A model generated the notes under the pieces. That model was not told where the DNA came from, did no database searches, and worked only from the letters and a program-made list of their open reading frames with translations. 22,807 bases of DNA from a virus, in IMG/VR virus record IMGVR_UViG_3300046809_000088, positions 1-22,807 of that record; one strand, written 5' to 3'. Position numbers and translations under genes: made by a program. Of this stretch, positions 3,116-12,615 are shown one piece after another (the stretch's first letter is position 1; the number at the start of each line of letters is the position of its first letter).

Positions 3116-3703
3116 ATGACTGACAACTTCCGCGGCGACAACGCCAAGCTGGTCGAGTCGATTAAGGCGCTGCTGGCGCTCGACGAGAGCGGGTCATTGG
3201 TGCCGCACGGCGTAGGTGGGCACGCTCGCCAGCTATTGAGCGCAGCCGCATCGCGTCTCTCCGCGAGCATCGCCGACACAGCGGGGGCGAAGCCGATCTA
3301 TCAGGTTCAAGACCCATGCGAAGCGACGTGGGAAGACACGGACTGGCTCACGTACAAAAGTACAGATGGCGCTTTCGCCCGCATCGTCTACGCCGCCCCT
3401 CCCGTCACTCCGAGCGACAAGCAAGATGAATTAGGACCGTTCCGACACAAATGCAGGTCTTGCGGTGGGATATTCGGTGCCCGCCACTGGAAGCCGATAT
3501 GTTCCACTTGCCGTGCAAACGCAACGTCCATCGACAAGCAAGAGGCATCAATGACCCGCGCTGGAATCGCATGTCTGCAACGCTATGCGTTTCGACCAAA
3601 TACCAGAATGAATTCGCTCGAGAAGGATAGCGAGGGTTCGTGGCTTCGGTATTCGGATGTGGTGCGTGTTGTAGAAGGCGCGATCAAAAAGGATCCGAAA
3701 TGA
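3116..3703 (+). CDS. Composite accessory protein with zinc ribbon and SIADTAGA repeat
   Basis: This 195-residue mosaic protein has an N-terminal helical part (LVESIKALLALDESGSLVPH then GGHARQLLSAAASRL, about residues 12-47), the linker SASIADTAGAK (49-59), a stretch ending IVYAAPP of a kind common in Ea22/DUF551-like phage proteins, then a zinc-ribbon-like pair CRSC (113-116) and CSTC (129-132). The C-terminal 50 residues begin at an internal methionine (MTRAGIACLQRYAF) and end VVEGAIKKDPK. The start has GAGAAA as a likely ribosome binding site. The stop overlaps the next ATG, and the sequence encoding KKDP supplies the next gene's Shine-Dalgarno site. Function unknown. Confidence 0.7.
   Translation: MTDNFRGDNAKLVESIKALLALDESGSLVPHGVGGHARQLLSAAASRLSASIADTAGAKPIYQVQDPCEATWEDTDWLTYKSTDGAFARIVYAAPPVTPSDKQDELGPFRHKCRSCGGIFGARHWKPICSTCRANATSIDKQEASMTRAGIACLQRYAFRPNTRMNSLEKDSEGSWLRYSDVVRVVEGAIKKDPK
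3259..3292 (+). repeat. Dispersed SIADTAGA repeat, copy 1
   Basis: Core CGACACAGCGGGGGCGAAG, part of a longer block that is identical over 31 bases (3259-3289) with copy 4 and over 28 bases (3265-3292) with copy 2. It is read in the frame giving SASIADTAGAK inside the gene at 3116-3703. Confidence 0.9.
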
Positions 3704-3948: not shown

Positions 3949-4694
3949 CCATCTGGAAGACGACGCATAAGGCTGTCTGCGTGCCGCTCACCGAAGACCG
4001 AGAAGTTGCGGAACAGTGGCGCGCGAACGGATACGAAGTGATCGAATTTTCCGCCCTCGAATCCCGCGTATTGGCGGAGAGGAAGCCGAGCCCGAAAGAT
4101 CAGGCGCGCCGCTTCGTGAGCGACTTCACGAGAGAGATGGGCTTCGCGATGAGCGACCATGCACAAGAGGTCATGCTCAATCTGTTCCTGAAACATGCCG
4201 CCAGTGCGCAGAGCATCGCCGACACAGCGGGGGCGAAGCAGGACGATGTGAGGGATGCGCTCGATATTGCCGAGCAGCTTGACGAGATGAGCGACCGGAT
4301 AACCCGCTTCAGCAATTACGAAGGCGACGCGGTGTGTGCTCGCGCGGCTCAACTTCTGAGGACGTTTGCCAACCATCAAGCCGCAAGACGCAAGGTCATG
4401 AGCGACGGCGATTTGCAAGACATCGTGATGGGCCTGTTTGGTCGATACACCATTCCGGCGGATTACAAGCTAGCCAACTCGGTTGCGGAATTCGTTATGT
4501 CGAAGCTACCGCGCTCCGCGCCATACGGCGCACCATTCACGACCGACGTTGCGCACTGCTGCGGCGATCCCGAGACGTGCAACGATCCGTGCGAGCCTGC
4601 TATCGACACAGCGGGGGCGAAGGCGGTGAATGCTGCGGCTGTTACGGGAGACGGGCGTCGCGCTGCCGCCATCGCAAAGGAGAGCGGGAAATGA
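3945..4694 (+). CDS. Accessory protein carrying two SIADTAGA-type repeats
   Basis: This 249-residue protein falls into three blocks separated by the repeat: residues 1-89 (begins MTIWKTTHKAVCVPLTEDRE), SIADTAGAK at 90-98, a helical middle region (99-219) with DLQDIVMGLFGRYTIPADYK, a CC..PE.C...C cysteine cluster (205-216), then IDTAGAK at 220-226 and a tail ending AAIAKESGK. ATG 3945 overlaps the upstream stop and follows AAGGGAG; an in-frame ATG at 3927 is the alternative. The block structure suggests separate modules joined at the repeated linker. I recognise no catalytic family. Confidence 0.68.
   Translation: MTIWKTTHKAVCVPLTEDREVAEQWRANGYEVIEFSALESRVLAERKPSPKDQARRFVSDFTREMGFAMSDHAQEVMLNLFLKHAASAQSIADTAGAKQDDVRDALDIAEQLDEMSDRITRFSNYEGDAVCARAAQLLRTFANHQAARRKVMSDGDLQDIVMGLFGRYTIPADYKLANSVAEFVMSKLPRSAPYGAPFTTDVAHCCGDPETCNDPCEPAIDTAGAKAVNAAAVTGDGRRAAAIAKESGK
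4211..4238 (+). repeat. Dispersed SIADTAGA repeat, copy 2
   Basis: Twenty-eight bases identical to 3265-3292, encoding SIADTAGAK in the same reading frame, at residues 90-98 of the gene at 3945-4694. Confidence 0.9.
4604..4622 (+). repeat. Dispersed SIADTAGA repeat, copy 3 (short)
   Basis: Exact 19-base core CGACACAGCGGGGGCGAAG, giving DTAGAK (residues 221-226) in the same frame. The 5' half of the longer unit is degenerate here (CCTGCTAT instead of CATCGC). It lies in the same gene as copy 2. Confidence 0.9.
4676..4694 (+). promoter_or_regulatory. Stereotyped ribosome-binding/ATGA junction 1
   Basis: AAAGGAG (4676-4682), 8 bases ending CGGGAA, then ATGA. The Shine-Dalgarno sequence lies inside the 3' end of the upstream gene and encodes its AKES residues. 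The same layout recurs at 4872-4890. Confidence 0.8.
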
Positions 4695-4890: not shown

Positions 4891-5474
4891 CTGAAGAACT
4901 GAAGCCGTGCCCGTTTTGCGGCGGCGAAGCATCCTTCACACTAACTGAGTCGCGCGCCGGCAAGTGGGGATTCGTGAAGTGCGGTTCCTGCGGGGCAACC
5001 TGTAACGATGACGACGTTGGCGACGCCGATTGGTGCGTTGATGTCTGGAACCGACGCGCCCCCTCCGCGAGCATCGCCGACACAGCGGGGGCGCAGAGCG
5101 CAGAGCAAGAGCGCGAGCGGTTTGAAGCAGATTACGCCGTCGTGTGGAACCGATCGATGCATGAAAACGGATGGGCGAGCGATCATACCGCCGACGATGT
5201 GAGGGCGCTTCGCGAAGGAGATACATACGGAGAGGGACGCGACTATCTCAACGCGCGCTGGGAGGGATGGCAAGCCCGTGTTGCTCTCGCCGCCCCTCCC
5301 GCGAGTTCGGTAGCCGATCAGTCTGGCGATACGGAAGTGGAGTGCAACTGCGGAAGCAACCCGCACGCTGAAAGCTGCCCCGTGACGTCGCATGTTCGCG
5401 CTTTGTTCGCGGCATGCTGGACAGAAGCCGCTATGGACAAGGAAATCGCCGCCATTGCCAAGGAGCCGAAATGA
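4887..5474 (+). CDS. Lar-like zinc-ribbon accessory protein with SIADTAGA linker
   Basis: This 195-residue protein starts with a restriction-alleviation (Lar)-like zinc ribbon: LKPCPFCGGEA (5-15), VKCGSCGATC (30-39) and a WNRRA end (54-58). C8, C11, C32 and C35 are the probable zinc ligands. The linker SASIADTAGAQ follows (60-70). A second module (79-138) contains FEADYAVVWNRSM, then YLNARWEGWQARVALAAPP, the YL..RWEGWQAR pattern seen in many composite phage accessory proteins. A third Cys motif, ECNCGSNPHAESCP, sits at 152-165. The start follows AAAGGAG by 8 bases. Lar proteins protect phage DNA from type I restriction, but here only the ribbon is shared, so that role is not assured. Confidence 0.75.
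   Translation: MTEELKPCPFCGGEASFTLTESRAGKWGFVKCGSCGATCNDDDVGDADWCVDVWNRRAPSASIADTAGAQSAEQERERFEADYAVVWNRSMHENGWASDHTADDVRALREGDTYGEGRDYLNARWEGWQARVALAAPPASSVADQSGDTEVECNCGSNPHAESCPVTSHVRALFAACWTEAAMDKEIAAIAKEPK
5063..5093 (+). repeat. Dispersed SIADTAGA repeat, copy 4
   Basis: Thirty-one bases identical to 3259-3289, again in frame as SASIADTAGA, here followed by CAG instead of AAG. It links the zinc ribbon to the second module of the gene at 4887-5474. Confidence 0.9.
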
Positions 5475-5968: not shown

Positions 5969-5973
5969 TGTAC

Positions 5974-6004
5974 ACGTGTGCGCACACGCGCATACGTGTG
6001 CGTC
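5974..6004 (+). repeat. Mutually exclusive inverted repeats upstream of parA
   Basis: A perfect 14-base palindrome CGTGTGCGCACACG is followed 5 bases later by another CGTGTGCG arm. The middle arm CGCACACG can pair with either flanking CGTGTGCG. This could be a centromere-like or operator site for the partition proteins, or an RNA switch at the end of the upstream transcript. No T-run follows, so it is not an intrinsic terminator. Confidence 0.6.
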
Positions 6005-6014
6005 ACTCCCCCCA

Positions 6015-6050
6015 TTGATGTTTGCGCAAGTATGGACTAGGATTTGCGCA
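6015..6050 (+). promoter_or_regulatory. Probable par promoter with two operator repeats
   Basis: TTGATG (6015-6020) and TAGGAT (6038-6043) are 17 bases apart and fit a sigma70 promoter. Direct repeats TTTGCGCA at 6021-6028 and 6043-6050 are centred 22 bases apart, about two helical turns: one abuts the -35 box, the other overlaps the -10 box and expected start. Such placement suggests autorepression, usual for par operons. GGGGAAG then precedes the parA ATG at 6070. Confidence 0.65.
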
Positions 6051-6069
6051 CAATAACAGGGGAAGTAAC

Positions 6070-6720
6070 ATGACCATCATAGCGGTTGTGATGCAGAAGG
6101 GTGGCGTCGGCAAGACAATGACCGCTACCAACGTCGCCGGTACGCTCGCCATGCAGGGCGGCTCTGTGCGCCTGTATGACGCCAATCCGTACCAGTCCAG
6201 CGCGTACCAGTGGGGGCAGTTGCGCATCGATGCCGAAGTTCCGCAGAACCTAAGCGTCGTGCGGGTCGACCAGAATTACGGGCACGCCGTCACTGCTGAC
6301 GCGCCGAACTTCGATCACATCGTCATCGACTGCCCGCCGAACCTCGATATGGAAACACGCGTCGCGATGGCATTGGCTGACATAATCCTGATTCCGTTGC
6401 GGATAGGCCAATTTGACGCCTGGAGCCTCGCGCAGACGGCGCACATAGTCAGGCAGAGAAGGGCGACGGTAACGGCGCCAGTGCGCGCTATCGCCTTTGT
6501 GAACGCCGTTCCGCATTACATCAGGGCGGAGCTTGACGAATCGATCGACGTTATCCGTGAAATGGGCGACTTCGAACTAGGCCCAACGATCGTCGACCGG
6601 GCGGCATACCGGAAGGGCGCGAAACTAGGGTTGTCGGTAATGGAGTTGCCGGCCGAATACCGGGACGGGAAAGCGAGTGACGAGTTCGGCACACTGATGG
6701 CGGGGGTTCTCAATGGCTAA
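6070..6720 (+). CDS. parA: ParA-family partition ATPase (short, type Ib-like)
   Basis: This 216-residue protein has no N-terminal HTH, the size of type Ib plasmid ParA proteins. It has the deviant Walker A QKGGVGKT (9-16), the signature lysine K10 being ParA/MinD-specific. The A' region reads LYDANPYQSS (35-44), an NP where DP is usual, and Walker B is HIVIDCPP (83-90). ParA binds DNA non-specifically with ATP and moves cargo through a centromere-bound partner. The start at 6070 follows GGGGAAG; an in-frame TTG further upstream is less likely. The partner gene overlaps its stop by eight bases, and Rep follows directly. Plasmid-type segregation is implied. Alternatively it could be an orphan ParA that regulates other genes. 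Confidence 0.93.
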   Translation: MTIIAVVMQKGGVGKTMTATNVAGTLAMQGGSVRLYDANPYQSSAYQWGQLRIDAEVPQNLSVVRVDQNYGHAVTADAPNFDHIVIDCPPNLDMETRVAMALADIILIPLRIGQFDAWSLAQTAHIVRQRRATVTAPVRAIAFVNAVPHYIRAELDESIDVIREMGDFELGPTIVDRAAYRKGAKLGLSVMELPAEYRDGKASDEFGTLMAGVLNG

Positions 6721-6961
6721 TCCTCCCCTGAACCGAAGCGCCGTCGACGCCTTCATCGGCCAGCAGCCAGCAAAGCCAGAGAACGAGGCGCAGCCGACAT
6801 TCCGCGAGCGGGACTCGACGCAGCGGATGGCGGTGAATATGCCGAAAAGCTTGTATGAGGAATTGCGCGCGTTTATGAAGCTGACGGATACGCCAATGTC
6901 TGACCTGCTTGTCGAAGGGGCGCGACGCGAGCTGGCGAGGCGGAAGCAGGGCGGGATATGA
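6713..6961 (+). CDS. parB: Ribbon-helix-helix partner (ParB/CopG-like)
   Basis: This 82-residue protein has a polar, probably disordered N-terminus (1-36) and a C-terminal ribbon-helix-helix: QRMAVNMPKSLYEELRAF (37-54), then a turn with TDTPMSDLL and a second helix VEGARRELARRK. Residues QRMAVNM would be the DNA-contacting strand of the dimer. In type Ib par systems such small RHH proteins bind the centromere and repress the operon, and their flexible N-terminus stimulates ParA ATPase. The gene overlaps parA by 8 bases and rep by ATGA, so all three are likely co-translated. The symbol is by analogy: it is not a classic HTH-type ParB. Confidence 0.82.
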   Translation: MANPPLNRSAVDAFIGQQPAKPENEAQPTFRERDSTQRMAVNMPKSLYEELRAFMKLTDTPMSDLLVEGARRELARRKQGGI

Positions 6962-7521
6962 ATCAGGGCCAACTTTGGGACGAGTTGGACGCCGATACGA
7001 TATGGGTCCACGTTCTGAGAAGCACGCCGCTTGATGCGATGGGGATAAACGCTATCGCGGTATATGTCATGCTCAAGACCTATACGGATTTGAACAACGG
7101 AACGGCGTTCCCTGGCGTCGACACGCTGGCCGAACGCCTCAAGACTTCTCGCGATACTGTCGAACGCGCGCTGCGCCGCTTGAGGGAGCTTAAATTGCTC
7201 GATTGGGACAAAGACCCGGAGAACCGCAAGCGGAACCGTTACCGGTTTACTGAGCAGCTTCCGCTGGTGACTAAGAGCGATCGGACGCCTGCTGGAACCG
7301 CATCGGTTCCGTATGTTCCGACTGGCTTACAAGACTTCCTTAACGAACTGAAGGAATTCGCTAAGAACGGCACGCCGACTGGTCCGCAGATCGTTATCAA
7401 CCTGTCGTTGCAAATTGGCGACAACAATGTTCAGAATGTTCAGAACGTTGTGGTCGAGGGATCGTCTGTATCGCAAGATGCGATTGCAGAAATCAAGCGA
7501 AAGCTTGCCCCTAAATCTTAG
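6958..7521 (+). CDS. Winged-helix Rep-like protein (putative replication initiator)
   Basis: This 187-residue protein has residues 28-100 forming a winged helix of the type found in plasmid and phage replication proteins: NAIAVYVMLKTYTDLNNGTA, then FPGVDTLAERLKTSRDTVER (turn plus recognition helix), then ALRRLRELKLLDWDKD and a basic wing (RKRNRYRF). Residues 101-145 are a linker, and 146-168 form a short beta repeat with QIGDNNVQNVQNVVVEG. The gene overlaps the RHH gene as ATGA. Directly downstream are three iteron-like repeats, DnaA boxes and an AT-rich tract, which supports an initiator role. Known initiators are often longer, so a partition or copy-number regulator is an alternative. Confidence 0.75.
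   Translation: MNQGQLWDELDADTIWVHVLRSTPLDAMGINAIAVYVMLKTYTDLNNGTAFPGVDTLAERLKTSRDTVERALRRLRELKLLDWDKDPENRKRNRYRFTEQLPLVTKSDRTPAGTASVPYVPTGLQDFLNELKEFAKNGTPTGPQIVINLSLQIGDNNVQNVQNVVVEGSSVSQDAIAEIKRKLAPKS
7426..7449 (+). repeat. Tandem 9-base repeat within rep
   Basis: AATGTTCAG occurs twice in tandem (7426-7434, 7435-7443) and is followed by the related AACGTT. It encodes NVQNVQNV in the C-terminal beta region. It may be a protein-level repeat only. Confidence 0.7.
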
Positions 7522-7541
7522 AGAAATCTTACTTCTTATTA

Positions 7542-7561
7542 GTGCCGCACCCGTGCGGTAT
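7542..7561 (+). repeat. Iteron-like repeat R1
   Basis: GTGCCGCACCCGTGCGGTAT, near-palindromic (CCGCAC/GTGCGG arms around CC). It starts exactly 32 bases before an identical second copy. It lies just after the rep-like gene. Confidence 0.85.
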
Positions 7562-7573
7562 ATCCGGCGAAAT

Positions 7574-7593
7574 GTGCCGCACCCGTGCGGTAT
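7574..7593 (+). repeat. Iteron-like repeat R2
   Basis: Identical 20 bases to R1. With R3 it also shares the extension TATGTGG to its right. The spacing to R3 is again 32 bases. Confidence 0.85.
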
Positions 7594-7605
7594 GTGGCCG
7601 CCGAT

Positions 7606-7625
7606 ATGCCGCACCACAGCGGTAT
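7606..7625 (+). repeat. Iteron-like repeat R3 (diverged)
   Basis: ATGCCGCACCACAGCGGTAT: 16 of 20 positions match R1/R2, and the inner arm of the palindrome is lost. Its last base is the first base of the left DnaA box, so the initiator and DnaA sites touch. Confidence 0.8.
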
Positions 7626-7644
7626 GTGGATAACCTTATCCACA
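7625..7644 (+). promoter_or_regulatory. Two perfect inverted DnaA boxes
   Basis: TGTGGATAA (7625-7633, minus-strand orientation) and TTATCCACA (7636-7644, plus) are perfect matches to the strong DnaA-box consensus TTATNCACA, separated only by CC. Together they form a 20-base palindrome. Confidence 0.88.
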
Positions 7645-7679
7645 AGTGATAAACCTTATTATGTCAATTATCGTAAACA

Positions 7680-8741
7680 ATGACAAGAAACAATAACCTT
7701 GACGGCCTGCGCGGGCTGGCCGCCCTTTCTGTCGTCCTCGGCCATTGCGCGACCTATTACGGTGGCGTTCCGATCTACTTGAAGGAAGCTGCCGACTTTC
7801 ACAAGATGACAGGCCCGGAGATCTTCATTCGGCTTTGGCATACGGTATTTAATGCTGACGCGGCCGTAATGCTGTTCTTCGTGCTTAGCGGGTATGTGCT
7901 TGGCAAGTCGATGCTAAGGCGGTCAGAAGGGCCAATACAGGCGTTCTTGCCGTTCGTTTTCCGTCGAGCGACGCGCCTTTACCCTGTCGCCATCGCTGCC
8001 GCTGCGCTGCTTTGGGTGGCGCTGCCGCGCGTTACGCTGCCCGAGGCCATCTCTGCGGCCACGCTGATGGATCGTTCTGTTAATGGCGTGATCTGGAGCC
8101 TACAGGTCGAGCTGGTCGGGTCGCTCGTGATCTATGCGCTGTGGGCGACGCGTAGCCGGATGCTGGTGAGCTCACTTGTGATTGGCTTCGCGTATCTGTA
8201 TTACGCTGTGCCCGCCTGGGTTCATCCGATGACGTTTGGCCTTTTCGAAAGCATGTTTCTGATGTTTCAGGCTGCGTTCGTTTGCGGGTATGCCATCGCC
8301 TCTGGCGTCGCGCGCATCCCGAGATCGAAATTGCTGCTGCTGGCCGGAGTAGTCGCCTATCTTGGCTCGGATCTGTTTCTTGGCCGCGAATGGGGAAGCC
8401 GCTTTATGGAGATCGCAGGCGCAACAGTGATCGTCGGCTACTTTGCAAATGCGCCGATCGCGGCACTCGACAGCCGACCGGTTCAATTCCTGGGAGCGGT
8501 CAGTTACCCAATGTACATCGTTCAAATTGTGATGGTCGCCTACGGCGCGAAGTTCGTCGAGTTCGTCGCACAGAAGGCCAACCCGTTGCCGAAAGTGCTG
8601 CTGCTCGCCGCGGCCGTCGTTCCGCTCTCCCTTGTTATGGGCTGGCTTATGACGGTCACGGTCGAGCGGCCGGCAATGAGGTTGCCAGCGCTGCTGTCTT
8701 CGAAAAGGAGCGCGCCGGCATCGATTACGGAAGTTGCGTAA
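7680..8741 (+). CDS. Acyltransferase-3 (OafA/O-antigen acetylase-like) membrane protein
   Basis: This 353-residue integral membrane protein has about ten hydrophobic helices. It matches the acyltransferase-3 family: LDGLRGLAALSVVLGH (7-22, with R11 and H22 as the conserved pair), FFVLSGYVLGKS (66-77), RRATRLYP (95-102), NGVIWSLQVEL (135-145) and a late transmembrane pattern near SYPMYIVQIVMV. Members move acetyl groups from the cytoplasm onto surface polysaccharides such as O-antigen. In temperate phages they are typical serotype-converting genes that stop superinfection. Starting at 7680, the N-terminus fits the family and begins inside the AT-rich origin tract, without a clear Shine-Dalgarno site. 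Its 3' end overlaps a convergent fibre-like gene by 17 bases. The exact substrate is unknown. Confidence 0.92.
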   Translation: MTRNNNLDGLRGLAALSVVLGHCATYYGGVPIYLKEAADFHKMTGPEIFIRLWHTVFNADAAVMLFFVLSGYVLGKSMLRRSEGPIQAFLPFVFRRATRLYPVAIAAAALLWVALPRVTLPEAISAATLMDRSVNGVIWSLQVELVGSLVIYALWATRSRMLVSSLVIGFAYLYYAVPAWVHPMTFGLFESMFLMFQAAFVCGYAIASGVARIPRSKLLLLAGVVAYLGSDLFLGREWGSRFMEIAGATVIVGYFANAPIAALDSRPVQFLGAVSYPMYIVQIVMVAYGAKFVEFVAQKANPLPKVLLLAAAVVPLSLVMGWLMTVTVERPAMRLPALLSSKRSAPASITEVA

Positions 8742-9570
8742 TCATGAGGTAGTTAGATGCGGCGGTCGTGGTAAGCGTAAGCGCCGCACCGCTCGTCTGT
8801 GCGAGAACGACCGTGATCGTATCGCCCGCCGCGCAGTTCACGACCGCATTAATCGGGTGCGTGTAGTAGGGCTGCGATGCCGCGGCCGAAGGGAACACTA
8901 CCGCGCTCTGATAGATGATCGCGCCATTGCGCCAGATTTGCGCATTGATGATGCCGCCAGACGGGAAGGTTGAAGTCGCGAACTGAAACTGCGCATTCAC
9001 CAGGTATTGCGCTGCAGTCGGAGCCGTAAAGACCCCCGTCGACGGGACGAACGCAGATCCCTGATTCAACTGCGCCGTCCAGCCGGTTACGGTCACGGTC
9101 GTATTGTTCGCAACGCTTCCGCCCGCAGTATTCACCGCGATAACCTTGGCCGATCCGGTCGCCTTGAGTACCGGCGCGGTAACGGTGCCGGTGAATGTGG
9201 GCGACGCGACAGGCGCGGCACCGAGGTTCGTCAGCGCAGCCGATGCCGTCGTTGCGTTCGTGCCGCCGCTATTGATTGGGATCACGCTCGTCAGCGAATA
9301 CACGCCAGAGCTGACGCGCCCTACATAGCCAGTCGACGCCCCCGAGAACCCGTAGAGGTTGTCCAGCCCGACGCCGCCCGCTGCCGAGCCAGTACCACCG
9401 CCCGCGACGCCGACAACGCCCCACGCAGGCGCAGACGATGCGCCAGCCGAGATAATGGCCTGACCTGCAGCCGATCCGGTCGGATTGAGCAATTGCACAG
9501 GAGCCAGGGTAGCAGCACCAGCGAAAGCAGCGCAAAGAGCCAGCGCGAGGCCGGCGAAAAGTCGTTTCAT
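8725..9570 (-). CDS. Fibre-like protein with signal peptide and C1q/TNF-like tail
   Basis: This 281-residue protein starts with a convincing Sec signal peptide (MKRLFAGLALALCAAFAGA, cleavage near AGA|AT). The middle has tail-fibre-like phrases such as INSGGTNATTASAALTNLGA and PTFTGTVTAP. The C-terminal 135 residues, from about VIAVNTAGG to the end, resemble a C1q/TNF-like jelly-roll with GVFTAPTAAQYLVNAQFQFA. The reading is last in the minus-strand run, after holins and lysozyme. A signal peptide is unusual for a virion fibre, but such proteins recur in Burkholderia phages. It could be a receptor-binding tip, an exported protein or an anti-receptor. A weak AAGGC site precedes ATG at 9570. Confidence 0.78.
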   Translation of the reverse strand: MKRLFAGLALALCAAFAGAATLAPVQLLNPTGSAAGQAIISAGASSAPAWGVVGVAGGGTGSAAGGVGLDNLYGFSGASTGYVGRVSSGVYSLTSVIPINSGGTNATTASAALTNLGAAPVASPTFTGTVTAPVLKATGSAKVIAVNTAGGSVANNTTVTVTGWTAQLNQGSAFVPSTGVFTAPTAAQYLVNAQFQFATSTFPSGGIINAQIWRNGAIIYQSAVVFPSAAASQPYYTHPINAVVNCAAGDTITVVLAQTSGAALTLTTTAASNYLMITQLP

Positions 9571-9593: not shown

Positions 9594-10136
9594 TTAGCCG
9601 CGGTTGTCGGTGTTGATACGGGGATCAGCCTGTGCTTTCCCGCGAAAGAACGATGCAACCCCGAGAACGGCGCCGATCGTCAATGTGAGATCCGCTGACA
9701 GGGGAACCGGTTGAACGTGAAAGAGCGGCAGAATGAACATCGACATGACGTAGAGGCCGAACACGAAGCCGATGAATGGCCGCCATGTGTATGTGGGCCA
9801 ATGGTCCGCCTTCGCCTCAGATTGCATCGTCACGTTGACATCGCCGACCGCATCAGATGCCGCCTTAATGCTCGCCTGATCGGTCGCAGCGGCAATCTGC
9901 GCCATCTGCACCTTGAAGTCGTTATCCGCCTTCTGAAGCGCTGCGATCGCGTCGGGAGACAGCCCGGCTTGAATCGCCTGCGTAACCTGGTCCGTCGTGC
10001 CTTGATCGTGGCCAAGTACTGCGCCGCTCACTGCACGCAGCGCAGCGCCTGCCACCATGCCAGCAGGACCGCCGACGACAGAAAGAGCCGTCGCCAAGGT
10101 CGGCGCGACGCCGCCAAGTATCGATTTCCAGTCCAT
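9594..10136 (-). CDS. Holin-like protein (GTA_holin_3TM type)
   Basis: This 180-residue protein has an N-terminal hydrophobic/amphipathic segment (8-35, including GVAPTLATALSVVGGPAGMV), a polar helical middle with a conserved-looking PDAIAALQKADNDFKVQM (61-78), and two C-terminal membrane helices (about 120-140 and 148-165). The motif WPTYTWRPFIGFVFGLYVM is characteristic of the GTA_holin_3TM family (PF11351), which forms pores for endolysin release in phages and gene-transfer agents. It starts at ATG 10136 with a TGATG overlap with the lysozyme stop, a typical lysis-cassette arrangement; a longer open extension upstream is rejected. It accompanies a second, different holin upstream of the lysozyme. 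Confidence 0.85.
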   Translation of the reverse strand: MDWKSILGGVAPTLATALSVVGGPAGMVAGAALRAVSGAVLGHDQGTTDQVTQAIQAGLSPDAIAALQKADNDFKVQMAQIAAATDQASIKAASDAVGDVNVTMQSEAKADHWPTYTWRPFIGFVFGLYVMSMFILPLFHVQPVPLSADLTLTIGAVLGVASFFRGKAQADPRINTDNRG

Positions 10137-10588
10137 CACACCCCCTTGCGCATCATGTCGGCTAGGCGCTGCGCCCTGCCCTTGACCTGGGTCGCCCATG
10201 CCGACGCGAGCATGCCGTCCGCCGCTTGGTTGTATTTGCCCTGCCGCATAAATACGAGCGTATTCTTGAAGCCGAGTAGCTTCGTGATTCCGAGGTTGAA
10301 CGCCATGTTTGCGATAACGCGCTGGCGAACGTCGTTCAGATCCGTCCACCAAGGTAGGTTGCGGTCGAGATCGTGGAACACGTCTTCGAGGTCGTCATCG
10401 AGCAGCGAATTCACCTGCGTGTCGTTGAGCGGATATTTCCACCCGGCAGGCAGCGGCTTCCCGTTCAGGTTATGCCCGACGCCCACCGTGGGAATGCCCT
10501 TCGTGTCGTTGTACGGCGAATAACGAACGCCCTCGTCGCGCCGCAGCTCTGCGATCAGCTTTTGAAGGTTCTCGTTATTCATCGACAT
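10136..10588 (-). CDS. T4-type lysozyme (GH24 endolysin)
   Basis: This 150-residue protein has the T4 lysozyme catalytic triad spacing exactly: E19 (RRDEGVRY), D28 (YNDTKG) and T34 (IPTVGVGHN), as in T4 E11-D20-T26. It hydrolyses the MurNAc-GlcNAc bond of peptidoglycan at lysis. No signal peptide or SAR segment is visible, so it probably depends on a holin to reach the periplasm. ATG at 10588 is six bases after AAAGGGG; ATGs at 10594 and 10582 are alternatives. It overlaps the upstream holin gene by 14 bases and ends in a TGATG overlap with the downstream holin. Typical length for this class is 145-165 aa, so it is complete. Confidence 0.95.
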   Translation of the reverse strand: MSMNNENLQKLIAELRRDEGVRYSPYNDTKGIPTVGVGHNLNGKPLPAGWKYPLNDTQVNSLLDDDLEDVFHDLDRNLPWWTDLNDVRQRVIANMAFNLGITKLLGFKNTLVFMRQGKYNQAADGMLASAWATQVKGRAQRLADMMRKGV

Positions 10589-10766
10589 TCGCATCCCCTT
10601 TGCGCAGGCGCTTGATCGACGAGTAAATCTGTAGTGCCGTGTAGATAACTGACAATGCGAGCAACACGCGCGGGAAGTTCGCGTCACTCCACGCGAGCGC
10701 CGTTGCGTACCAAGGAGGCGCGACTTGTGCGACCGTTTGCGCAACGGCCGAAGCGGTTTCTTTCAT
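10575..10766 (-). CDS. Small one-helix holin
   Basis: This 63-residue protein has a polar start with the APPWYATALAWSD segment, one clear transmembrane helix (FPRVLLALSVIYTALQIYSS, about 31-50), and a basic tail KRLRKGDANVDE. The combination of APP, a W.D patch, a LxxxIYTALQIxxxI helix and a charged tail is like the small class II/T7-type holins that precede lysozyme in many beta-proteobacterial phages. It overlaps the lysozyme start, and a terminator hairpin lies just upstream. It is likely the principal holin or an antiholin to the larger one at 9594-10136. Confidence 0.82.
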   Translation of the reverse strand: MKETASAVAQTVAQVAPPWYATALAWSDANFPRVLLALSVIYTALQIYSSIKRLRKGDANVDE

Positions 10767-10979: not shown

Positions 10980-12615
10980 TCTGGAATGGCACCTTATAAA
11001 GAGTCCCGTTGACGTAGACGCCGAGATAGCCAACGACGCCGCCCGCAGTCGCGTAAGTCGTATGCCCGACCACTTCGAGCGCGGGAGCCGAAAGGCTGAT
11101 CGACTGATGCCCGGAAACGTAGGAGATGCCCTGCGCGTTTCCTGCGCCGTTAAGCTGGATAGGCTGATTCGGCGCCATCGCAATGCCAACCGAATACCCG
11201 GAACCGATGTTGAGGCCGACGTTACCCGCCGATGCTCCACCGGCAAGGTTGATGCCGTAGGCAACCGAGCTTCCGCTAATGTGGATACCCTGCGCGTGAT
11301 TCGATTGGATCTCAATGCCGATGCCCTGCGTCACATGCAGAGAATTGGTACGCATAATCAGGCCGTAGATCCAGTCGCCGGACGTGTAGTTGCCCGTTAC
11401 GCCGTTGATCCCGCCCGCGGCATAGAGCGCGAAGCCTTCTGTACAGTCGCCGCCGCCCCATGCAACAGCGCTGTATCCAGTCTTGCGGACCTGAGCGCTA
11501 TCCACGCCGGTATATTTCGTCCACGTCTTTATGTCAGACTCGAAGCCGATCAGCGCGTTATCGCCTGTCGTTTTCGTGCCGTCTGCCGAGATATTGCCGA
11601 TCTCCGAGTTGTAGCCTTCAGCGAAGCCGGAAAAATTGCCGTTAGTGTTGACCTGCGTGTACGTACCGACATGCGTCTGAGCAAGACTAGTCCCGCCGTG
11701 AACGTTGATAACAGACAGAAGCCCGATCTCTTGCCCGATGGCCGTCGCCGCTACTTCGGTTTGTGCCGAGATATTGGCGTGCTGCGCGGTGTCGAGCGTG
11801 CTATTGACATACCGCAAGCTATGGAACGTGTTTCCGCCTGCGGCCGATGACGCGGGTTGGTTGTCGTAGAGTCCAAGCGAGTTCGTGTAAAGCGGCGCCC
11901 CACTGACCTTCCACGAGCCGCCAGCCGGGACGATTACCGGCCCCTGTTGCGATGCGCACGCCGCGGCGAACGCAGCAGTATTGTCGACCGCAGAACCGCT
12001 TACGCCGCCGAAGTCAGTAACGCTTACGAGATCGCGGACACGGTTGCTGACTTTGGACCCCGACGCGATCGTGCTATCTGAAACAGACCCGGCGCCAGGC
12101 GTGCCGGCTGCGATCGTCGTCCCAATCTTCACGTTGACGGCCTGCACACCAACCGGAATGGGCGCCGTGAAAGTGAGCGTCGTTCCGTTTATCGTGTACT
12201 GGTCGTCAGACTGAAACGCCGAGTCGAAGAACACCCATGCATTCGTCGACGTGCCGGGGTTAGCAGGCAGCGTCAACGTCGTCGTCGTGCCGGCCGTAAA
12301 GTCGACGCCCGCGACATACCGGGCATCGGTGACGGTCCCGACTAGCGCGGAAGTAGGGTCTTCCGTTACCTGGTCCCAAATCGTAACGCCGTTGCAGTCT
12401 TTGACGATCTGCCGGTAGACGCCAGAACCCCAAATAAGCGCCTGTCCGCGGCTGTCGAGCGAAACGGGGTTCGTATTCGGGATCGTGCCCGCCGCATCCT
12501 GATACGTGGCCTTTGGATTTAGCGTACCAGGAGCGTAGAATCCGACTGTACCATTTGCAAGCGGCGCACCGTTTTGGTCGATGAACTGCTGCTTTGCATT
12601 GGGTATAAGCTGCAT
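10972..12615 (-). CDS. Tailspike / tail fibre with head-binding domain and beta-helix
   Basis: This 547-residue protein has an N-terminal domain (about 1-92) with FIDQNGAPLANGTVGFYAPG, then NPVSLDSRGQALIWGSGVYR, the same plan as P22-tailspike-like head-binding domains: a G.PL.NG.V.FY..GT run and a LD..G.A.IW..G.Y run. Residues 104-165 form a fold module shared with the needle-position protein (see findings). From about 190, VRDLVSVTDFGGVSGSAVDN resembles the start of pectate-lyase-like right-handed beta-helices (VSVkDFGA.GDG..D). The C-terminus ends YVNGTLYKVPFQNV, a common tail-fibre terminal motif. No catalytic residues can be assigned. ATG 12615 follows TGAGGC; upstream codons reach into the terminator and are rejected. 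Confidence 0.85.
   Translation of the reverse strand: MQLIPNAKQQFIDQNGAPLANGTVGFYAPGTLNPKATYQDAAGTIPNTNPVSLDSRGQALIWGSGVYRQIVKDCNGVTIWDQVTEDPTSALVGTVTDARYVAGVDFTAGTTTTLTLPANPGTSTNAWVFFDSAFQSDDQYTINGTTLTFTAPIPVGVQAVNVKIGTTIAAGTPGAGSVSDSTIASGSKVSNRVRDLVSVTDFGGVSGSAVDNTAAFAAACASQQGPVIVPAGGSWKVSGAPLYTNSLGLYDNQPASSAAGGNTFHSLRYVNSTLDTAQHANISAQTEVAATAIGQEIGLLSVINVHGGTSLAQTHVGTYTQVNTNGNFSGFAEGYNSEIGNISADGTKTTGDNALIGFESDIKTWTKYTGVDSAQVRKTGYSAVAWGGGDCTEGFALYAAGGINGVTGNYTSGDWIYGLIMRTNSLHVTQGIGIEIQSNHAQGIHISGSSVAYGINLAGGASAGNVGLNIGSGYSVGIAMAPNQPIQLNGAGNAQGISYVSGHQSISLSAPALEVVGHTTYATAGGVVGYLGVYVNGTLYKVPFQNV

Follow-up and report, generated by a model that had tools for sequence, protein, structure and literature searches.

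The 22,807-nucleotide stretch of viral DNA analysed here (positions 1 to 22,807 of IMG/VR virus record IMGVR_UViG_3300046809_000088; hereafter the window) raises the question of what a phage with P22-like virion genes does with a cassette of plasmid-type partition and replication genes, namely parA, a ribbon-helix-helix (RHH)-like gene and rep. The answer that we consider quite likely, judging from the sequences compared, is that the window belongs to a temperate P22-like phage, probably of Burkholderiaceae, which would persist as a low-copy circular plasmid by means of this maintenance cassette: what resembles a plasmid-maintenance kit stands at the place of the integration genes and its parts have been swapped separately, so that the phage probably lies dormant as a small plasmid. 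A first-pass annotation had proposed a podoviral phage-plasmid, and this proposal is well supported by the co-occurrence of virion genes with plasmid-type initiator and partition genes and by a search that found no integrase.

Over its whole length of 22,807 bases the window is identical to a section of an IMG/VR record of 40,065 bases (G001). A ParA scan of viral contigs returned 37 loci, of which 27, including the window's own record, show at least 77% ParA identity; these relatives are metagenomic virus records, many of them fragments, and the readings given below rest on sequence inference. DNA searches with the window, and with the cassette alone, gave no match in the phage collection. 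According to the accessible text of a 2026 catalogue, 4,395 phage-plasmid-like genomes have been drawn from IMG/VR (PMC13221032). The cassette comprises the following features:

Candidate centromere, 5969-6010, no strand: four CGTGTGCG-type octamers in both orientations, 5' of parA.
parA, 6070-6720, + strand: partition ATPase, type Ib-like, 216 amino acids from the ATG at 6070; a longer TTG start at 6022 was also listed.
RHH-like gene, 6713-6961, + strand: 82 amino acids, 8-nucleotide overlap with parA; presumed centromere-binding partner of ParA.
rep, 6958-7521, + strand: 187 amino acids, HTH_36 winged-helix protein, 4-nucleotide overlap with the RHH-like gene; presumed replication initiator.
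Three palindromic iterons, 7540-7629, + strand: spaced by 32 bp, the first two sharing the core CCGCAC-N2-GTGCGG.
Two perfect DnaA boxes, 7625-7633 (- strand) and 7636-7644 (+ strand): the sole perfect ones in the window, with 0.3 expected.
dif/XerCD-like site, 7642-7669, + strand: 28 bp, with XerC-like arm ACAAGTGATAA, centre ACCTTA and XerD-like arm TTATGTCAATT.

The overlapping order of parA, RHH-like and winged-helix Rep-like genes described by the first-pass annotation was found at 6070-7521. ParA matches Pfam AAA_31 (E 2.6e-19) and the PHROG ParA-like family (E 7e-37) and, being short (216 amino acids), leads us to call the par locus type Ib-like and not type Ia as in P1. When the locus is set beside ParF/ParG-type systems, the length of ParA and the gene order agree and upstream repeats are present, and the RHH fold of the partner is likely, as judged from a modest model (mean predicted local distance difference test score, pLDDT, 71) with two helices in the conserved half; the type Ib partition system first proposed is a candidate assignment, type Ib-like by short ParA and gene order. 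This 82-residue protein is conserved across the 12 loci aligned. It had no match in a Pfam search and just a weak Arc-like match in PHROG (E 0.04), and its profile and model returned no solved relative and no PDB match. The 8-nucleotide overlap between parA and the RHH-like gene is present in all 25 loci read (the 27 without the truncated L015 and L032). Upstream of parA, CGTGTGCG-type copies (at most one mismatch) start at 5975, 5981, 5989 and 5995, a number reached in 3 of 500 shuffles, and the same place is occupied by 3-6 CGTATGGA-type copies instead in nine of the 13 loci tested; both motifs were picked from the same data on which they were scored.

For the third gene, the homology search suggested in the first-pass annotation gave initiator-type matches: HTH_36 (E 6.8e-10, over the cut-off), DnaD_N (2e-6) and PHROG replication initiation (9e-8). 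No match to the Rep protein was found in the phage collection at E 0.01. An initiator role is supported by the company that the gene keeps, because Rep_3 or RepL initiators replace it at the same place in relatives and because the same layout is found on a Polaromonas plasmid. The comparison with P1 made in the first-pass annotation does not hold at the level of families. In P1, ParA is of type Ia, RepA belongs to the Rep_3 family and Cre-lox is present; the window phage has a type Ib-like par locus, an HTH_36 Rep, a host-Xer-like site and a P22-like virion. Its ParA is short, in contrast to the long P1-type ParA with an N-terminal helix-turn-helix, and neither its Rep nor G001 gives a Rep_3 (Rep3_N) match, a match present in seven of 31 records.

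The origin itself was largely as first described, with both the three phased repeats and the two perfect DnaA boxes borne out. Three 26-nucleotide copies lie at 7540, 7572 and 7604, in steps of 32 and 32, and three copies were reached in none of 100 shuffles. Among 19 origin regions tested for repeats, the observed copy number was matched by at most one of 100 shuffles in 13. Repeats of the HTH_36 types with significant repeats are spaced by 31-33 bp, except that L017, L008 and L005 each have a single longer step of 43-45 bp, which in L017 and L008 contains a DnaA box. Those of the Rep_3 type are spaced by 20-23 bp, and L016 has a further copy lying apart. Cross-matching of iterons says little for the G+C-rich cores of the L017 and L027 types, which find loose matches elsewhere. 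Thirteen perfect DnaA boxes occur in 13 phage records (605 kb), ten of them 300 bp or less from rep, in a neighbourhood that accounts for 2.6% of the sequence (binomial P 3e-14, to be taken as a guide because the records are related); a perfect DnaA box is missing from five of these records.

A large part of what the first-pass annotation had described as an AT-rich tract corresponds to the 28-bp dif/XerCD-like site, which it had missed. The dif-like motif TGATAA-N6-TTATGT-N-AA is common to the regions 3' of the origins and was found once per record, with no more than a single mismatch, in 11 of the 13 records scanned, against 0.0 in shuffles, with a consensus drawn from the same records in which it was scanned. 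In ten of these 11 records the site lies 2-410 bp 3' of rep, the exception being G004, with a distance of 17 kb; none was found in G028 or G026 at up to two mismatches. Among 16 shorter relatives, 14 have the site at up to two mismatches and G003 and G024 do not. Compared with the Burkholderia (B. mallei) dif given in the accessible text of PMC2731167, the window site agrees at 10 of 11 positions of the XerD arm and 6 of 11 of the XerC arm. When the published B. mallei arms alone were used for scanning, the same site was the best of the whole record in 10 of the 13 (in nine of these no more than about 410 bp from rep, and in G004 at a great distance; the exceptions are G028, G002 and G023). 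The score topped all 20 shuffles in five of the 13 (G027, G016, G004, G026 and G006) and was equalled by shuffles in the remaining records.

The phage around this cassette is P22-like, as first annotated: the late genes follow the order coat (phrog_283), connector (phrog_637), head closure (phrog_578) and ejection (phrog_598), and G001 contains a terminase large subunit and a P22_Tail-4 match (E 1.4e-5; at 20 bits, under the cut-off of 21). The nearest cultured relative among the matches listed is Pseudomonas phage PAE2 (OK041467; head closure protein 51.6% identical), which has likewise been annotated with P22-type portal, coat and tail factor and which, unlike the window phage, has an integrase gene after the late genes. 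Next to the cassette, and outside the replicon, lies a further gene:

Acyltransferase_3 gene (O-antigen acetylase-like), 7680-8741, + strand: Pfam Acyl_transf_3, E 1.4e-27.

In the window, rep and the late genes are separated by this acetylase-like gene, so that the cassette takes, by gene order, the position of the integrase. Podophage YA3 (PMC7326022, accessible text), likened here by description and not by sequence, also carries an O-acetyltransferase gene beside its lysogeny genes, in the order tail fibre, O-acetyltransferase, one small gene, integrase and excisionase, and integrates at a tRNA gene. Bcep22-like phages were also weighed as kin, again by description and not by sequence; of these, JC1 integrates at rimO. 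An integrase search, also proposed at first pass, gave no tyrosine integrase (PF00589) in 32 records and no serine integrase (PF00239) in 31, many of them fragments. G001 also has a repressor-like gene and, at 7866-9410, an O-like gene (PHROG, 1e-25) ahead of one for a DnaC-like helicase loader (8e-75); this region contains a DnaA box at 8168 and, at 8199-8228, a tandem 15-nucleotide repeat. It is a probable separate lytic origin, and a repressor-like gene together with an O-like/DnaC-like pair is what one would expect in a phage whose lytic replication is separate. Elsewhere in the window, a 34-nucleotide direct repeat occurs at 3259-3292, 4205-4238, 4589-4622 and 5063-5096 (the other copies being 85, 68 and 97% identical to the first); it falls within three different early open reading frames and encodes IADTAGAK/Q or IDTAGAK.

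Comparison with the relatives showed the two halves of the cassette in different combinations. An initiator-like gene follows parA and the RHH-like gene in 26 of the 27 loci with at least 77% ParA identity, and it is of the HTH_36 type in nine records (six of them of a subtype, HTH_36-c), Rep_3 in seven, RepL in three and a weaker RepL-like type in seven; the typing is based on hmmscan of nine phage representatives (Rep_3 E 1e-33, RepL E 2e-30), on PF01051 matches in seven of 31 records and on the reading of near-identical sequences. Records G006, G007-G010 and G013 match the window parA and RHH-like gene at 90-97% DNA identity, and G011 and G012 at 85-94%, and none of these eight (G006, G007-G013) has a detectable DNA match to the window rep or origin. 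Both G006 and G013 are P22-like; the alignment of G006 stops at 6961, the end of the RHH-like gene, and G013 carries a Rep_3 initiator. The reverse case is P22-like G002, in which rep and origin are found at 96% identity without any parA or RHH match. The block in common with G002 covers 6958-7667; it starts at the rep start codon and stops 2 bp short of the end of the Xer-like site. The upstream neighbour gene in G002 is 78% identical, which indicates that the place of the cassette is the same. As read from these alignments, the par unit and the rep-origin-Xer unit have been exchanged separately between phages.

Some loci depart from this layout or occur in other phages. In L033 (G031), with parA at 9351 and a dif-like site at 12156, no initiator-like gene was found behind par, as if rep had been lost or moved. 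G027 (48,727 bases) encodes tail sheath, tape measure and baseplate genes, and its parA at 484 (ParA 78% identical in amino acids) is followed by an RHH gene common with the window and a RepL-like Rep. In G004 (77,934 bases), a related triplet of parA (about 67837-68475), an RHH-like gene (67518-67844) and an HTH_36 rep (66865-67518) lies well inside the contig, together with five palindromic repeats and a DnaA box; its Rep found partial matches only, to Salinibacter and Microbacterium phages. G004 encodes a portal protein with 64% identity to its counterpart in Erwinia phage phiEaP8, which we take to belong to the N4-like group, and N4-like phages are, to our knowledge, held to be strictly lytic. 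A related HTH_36 Rep is found in L006 (G005, 62,096 bases; rep at 10001-10624, with four repeats, DnaA boxes and a dif-like site), which matches no G004 protein except Rep. We tentatively propose, at slightly less than even confidence, that unrelated tailed phages (P22-like, sheath-tailed and N4-like) and Burkholderiales plasmids draw on a common stock, consisting of a par operon with a fixed junction and of rep-iteron-DnaA units mostly closed by an XerCD site that marks the right exchange edge, that a replicon swap changes the incompatibility group, and that the N4-type phage too has a plasmid state.

Plasmid counterparts of the cassette are found for two of the initiator types. The circular, 104-kb plasmid pA29BJ2 of Polaromonas sp. 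ANT_J29B (NZ_MN657148) has the same layout as the window, with parA, a small open reading frame and an HTH_36 Rep (35% identical to the window Rep), followed by iterons spaced by 33 and 32 bp (three copies in 1 of 100 shuffles) and three DnaA boxes. The PLSDB table of this plasmid, which is incomplete, names no phage structural gene and no other replication gene. Phage L016 encodes a Rep_3 protein with 84% identity to the initiator of a Caballeronia plasmid of 8 kb, and iteron steps of 20, 21 and 22 bp are common to this plasmid and phages L016, L027 and L031; these likenesses point to Burkholderiaceae as the probable hosts.

Taken as a working system, the cassette would operate as follows. 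ParA and the RHH-like protein would act on the repeats 5' of parA to segregate the copies; the HTH_36 initiator would bind the three helically phased palindromic iterons, and host DnaA the adjoining boxes, opening the origin; and host XerCD would resolve dimers at the closing dif-like site. Judged from gene order, the cassette appears to occupy the int/xis place of integrating relatives, and lytic replication would be served by the separate O-like/DnaC-like pair, whose families are recognisable and whose role is predicted. Separate exchange of the par and rep-origin-Xer units would plausibly alter the incompatibility group.

The strongest rival uses the same dif-like site. The phage might integrate without an integrase of its own, host XerCD joining the site to a chromosomal dif as in CTXphi-type elements, and par and rep would then be auxiliary. 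Because of the Xer-like site, the absence of an integrase does not alone exclude integration, and this rival would account for the lack of any integrase family in the related records, for the single dif-like site in 11 of the 13 records scanned for it and for the close agreement of the XerD arm with Burkholderia dif; moreover, dif-using filamentous phages have been reported in Ralstonia (PMC4471427) and Cupriavidus (PMC10011098), according to the accessible text of both. The 6-bp centres of the Xer-like sites, however, differ between records, and that of the window agrees at 2 and 0 of 6 positions with the two B. mallei dif centres printed in the accessible text of PMC2731167, which also reports that dif centres vary little within one species. 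Such differences between records fit dimer self-resolution better than integration at one host dif, and the site thus suggests dimer resolution by host XerCD. A full plasmid replicon would also be superfluous in an integrating phage, and no integrated copy was seen, though the two genome-contig scans found no relative of any kind. We therefore regard XerCD integration as improbable. Still less probable is that Rep and the repeats form the lytic origin, with ParA and the RHH-like protein serving lytic growth or regulation and no plasmid state at all: the window Rep does match lambda O-like and DnaD-like phage families, but G001 has its separate O-like and DnaC-like genes with their own DnaA box and short tandem repeat, and Rep_3 or RepL plasmid initiators stand at the cassette place in relatives. 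Least credible of all seems a reading of the cassette as a plasmid remnant, decayed or hitch-hiking and now without a role, given genes that are open and overlapping, ParA identities of 77-100% in 27 loci and repeats beyond chance in most of the origins tested.

Several results weigh against a plasmid state of the phage or weaken parts of the argument for it. Exact end repeats of 105 or 127 bp in six of 13 records fit circular assembly and also permuted or terminally redundant virion DNA. Alignment scans of genome contigs with ParA (five pattern matches) and with Rep (15 pattern matches), both of which relied on short exact peptide patterns, yielded no relative, so that none of the records places the element in a cell, and a tblastn search for the head-closure protein in plasmids gave two remote matches (27% and 23%) and no sister phage filed as a plasmid. 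With the published arms alone, the window's own Xer-like site merely ties its shuffles, and a dif-like site may also allow XerCD integration at a host dif. The model of Rep is poor (mean pLDDT 59), with PerR/MarR-type regulators as best fold matches; profile and model together match winged helices of the MarR, DnaD and PerR types, and such matches do not settle what Rep does. The RHH assignment depends on a modest-quality model, repeats are not significant in six of the 19 origin regions (L007, three RepL and two RepL-like), and both tested members of HTH_36-c fall below the Pfam HTH_36 cut-off, so that the initiator label of six records is weak.

Among the matches listed for ParA, the first cultured phage is Burkholderia phage KS14 (33% identical), with Escherichia phage D6 at 30% and a slightly better E-value; KS14 is a P2-like myovirus maintained as a plasmid. 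The closest parallel is offered by the parABS phages of the cluster A mycobacteriophages (RedRock, Miko and others), in which, as here, a partition cassette replaces the integration cassette of related genomes and the adjoining replication system varies; RepA was found in 5 of 110 and RNA-based replication in the others, and plasmid replication was shown (PMC7157519, accessible text). In that same text the hosts are different, the ParB partners belong to at least four families, in contrast to the one conserved small partner here, no repeated motifs were found by the authors in the repA origins, and the accessible part mentions no Xer site. Phage-plasmids in general, such as the P1-like groups, also combine virion genes with plasmid-type replication and partition genes, and rep and par genes have been reported to move between plasmids and phage-plasmids, for which a way of avoiding incompatibility has been proposed as the reason (PMC10879196, accessible text). 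In the accessible accounts of Acinetobacter pdif modules, XerC/D-like sites bound modules on plasmids, whereas here there is one site per genome, on one side of a phage replicon. Neither the substitution of partition and replication genes for an integration cassette nor the exchange of rep and par between plasmids and phage-plasmids is therefore without precedent. No paper on the present phage group was recognised in the literature searched, and as far as that literature shows, the P22-like setting, the separate par and rep-origin swaps at fixed junctions and the Xer-like right border are new.

These phages provide a natural series of replicons in which the partition unit is constant while initiator and origin change, with one reverse case, and this series opens to direct testing both the replacement of integration by a plasmid state and the way in which one phage lineage diversifies in incompatibility. 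Resolution of dimers by host Xer proteins is a probable added part of such phages. Finally, G004 suggests that an N4-like phage may have a plasmid state, which would not be expected of this group.

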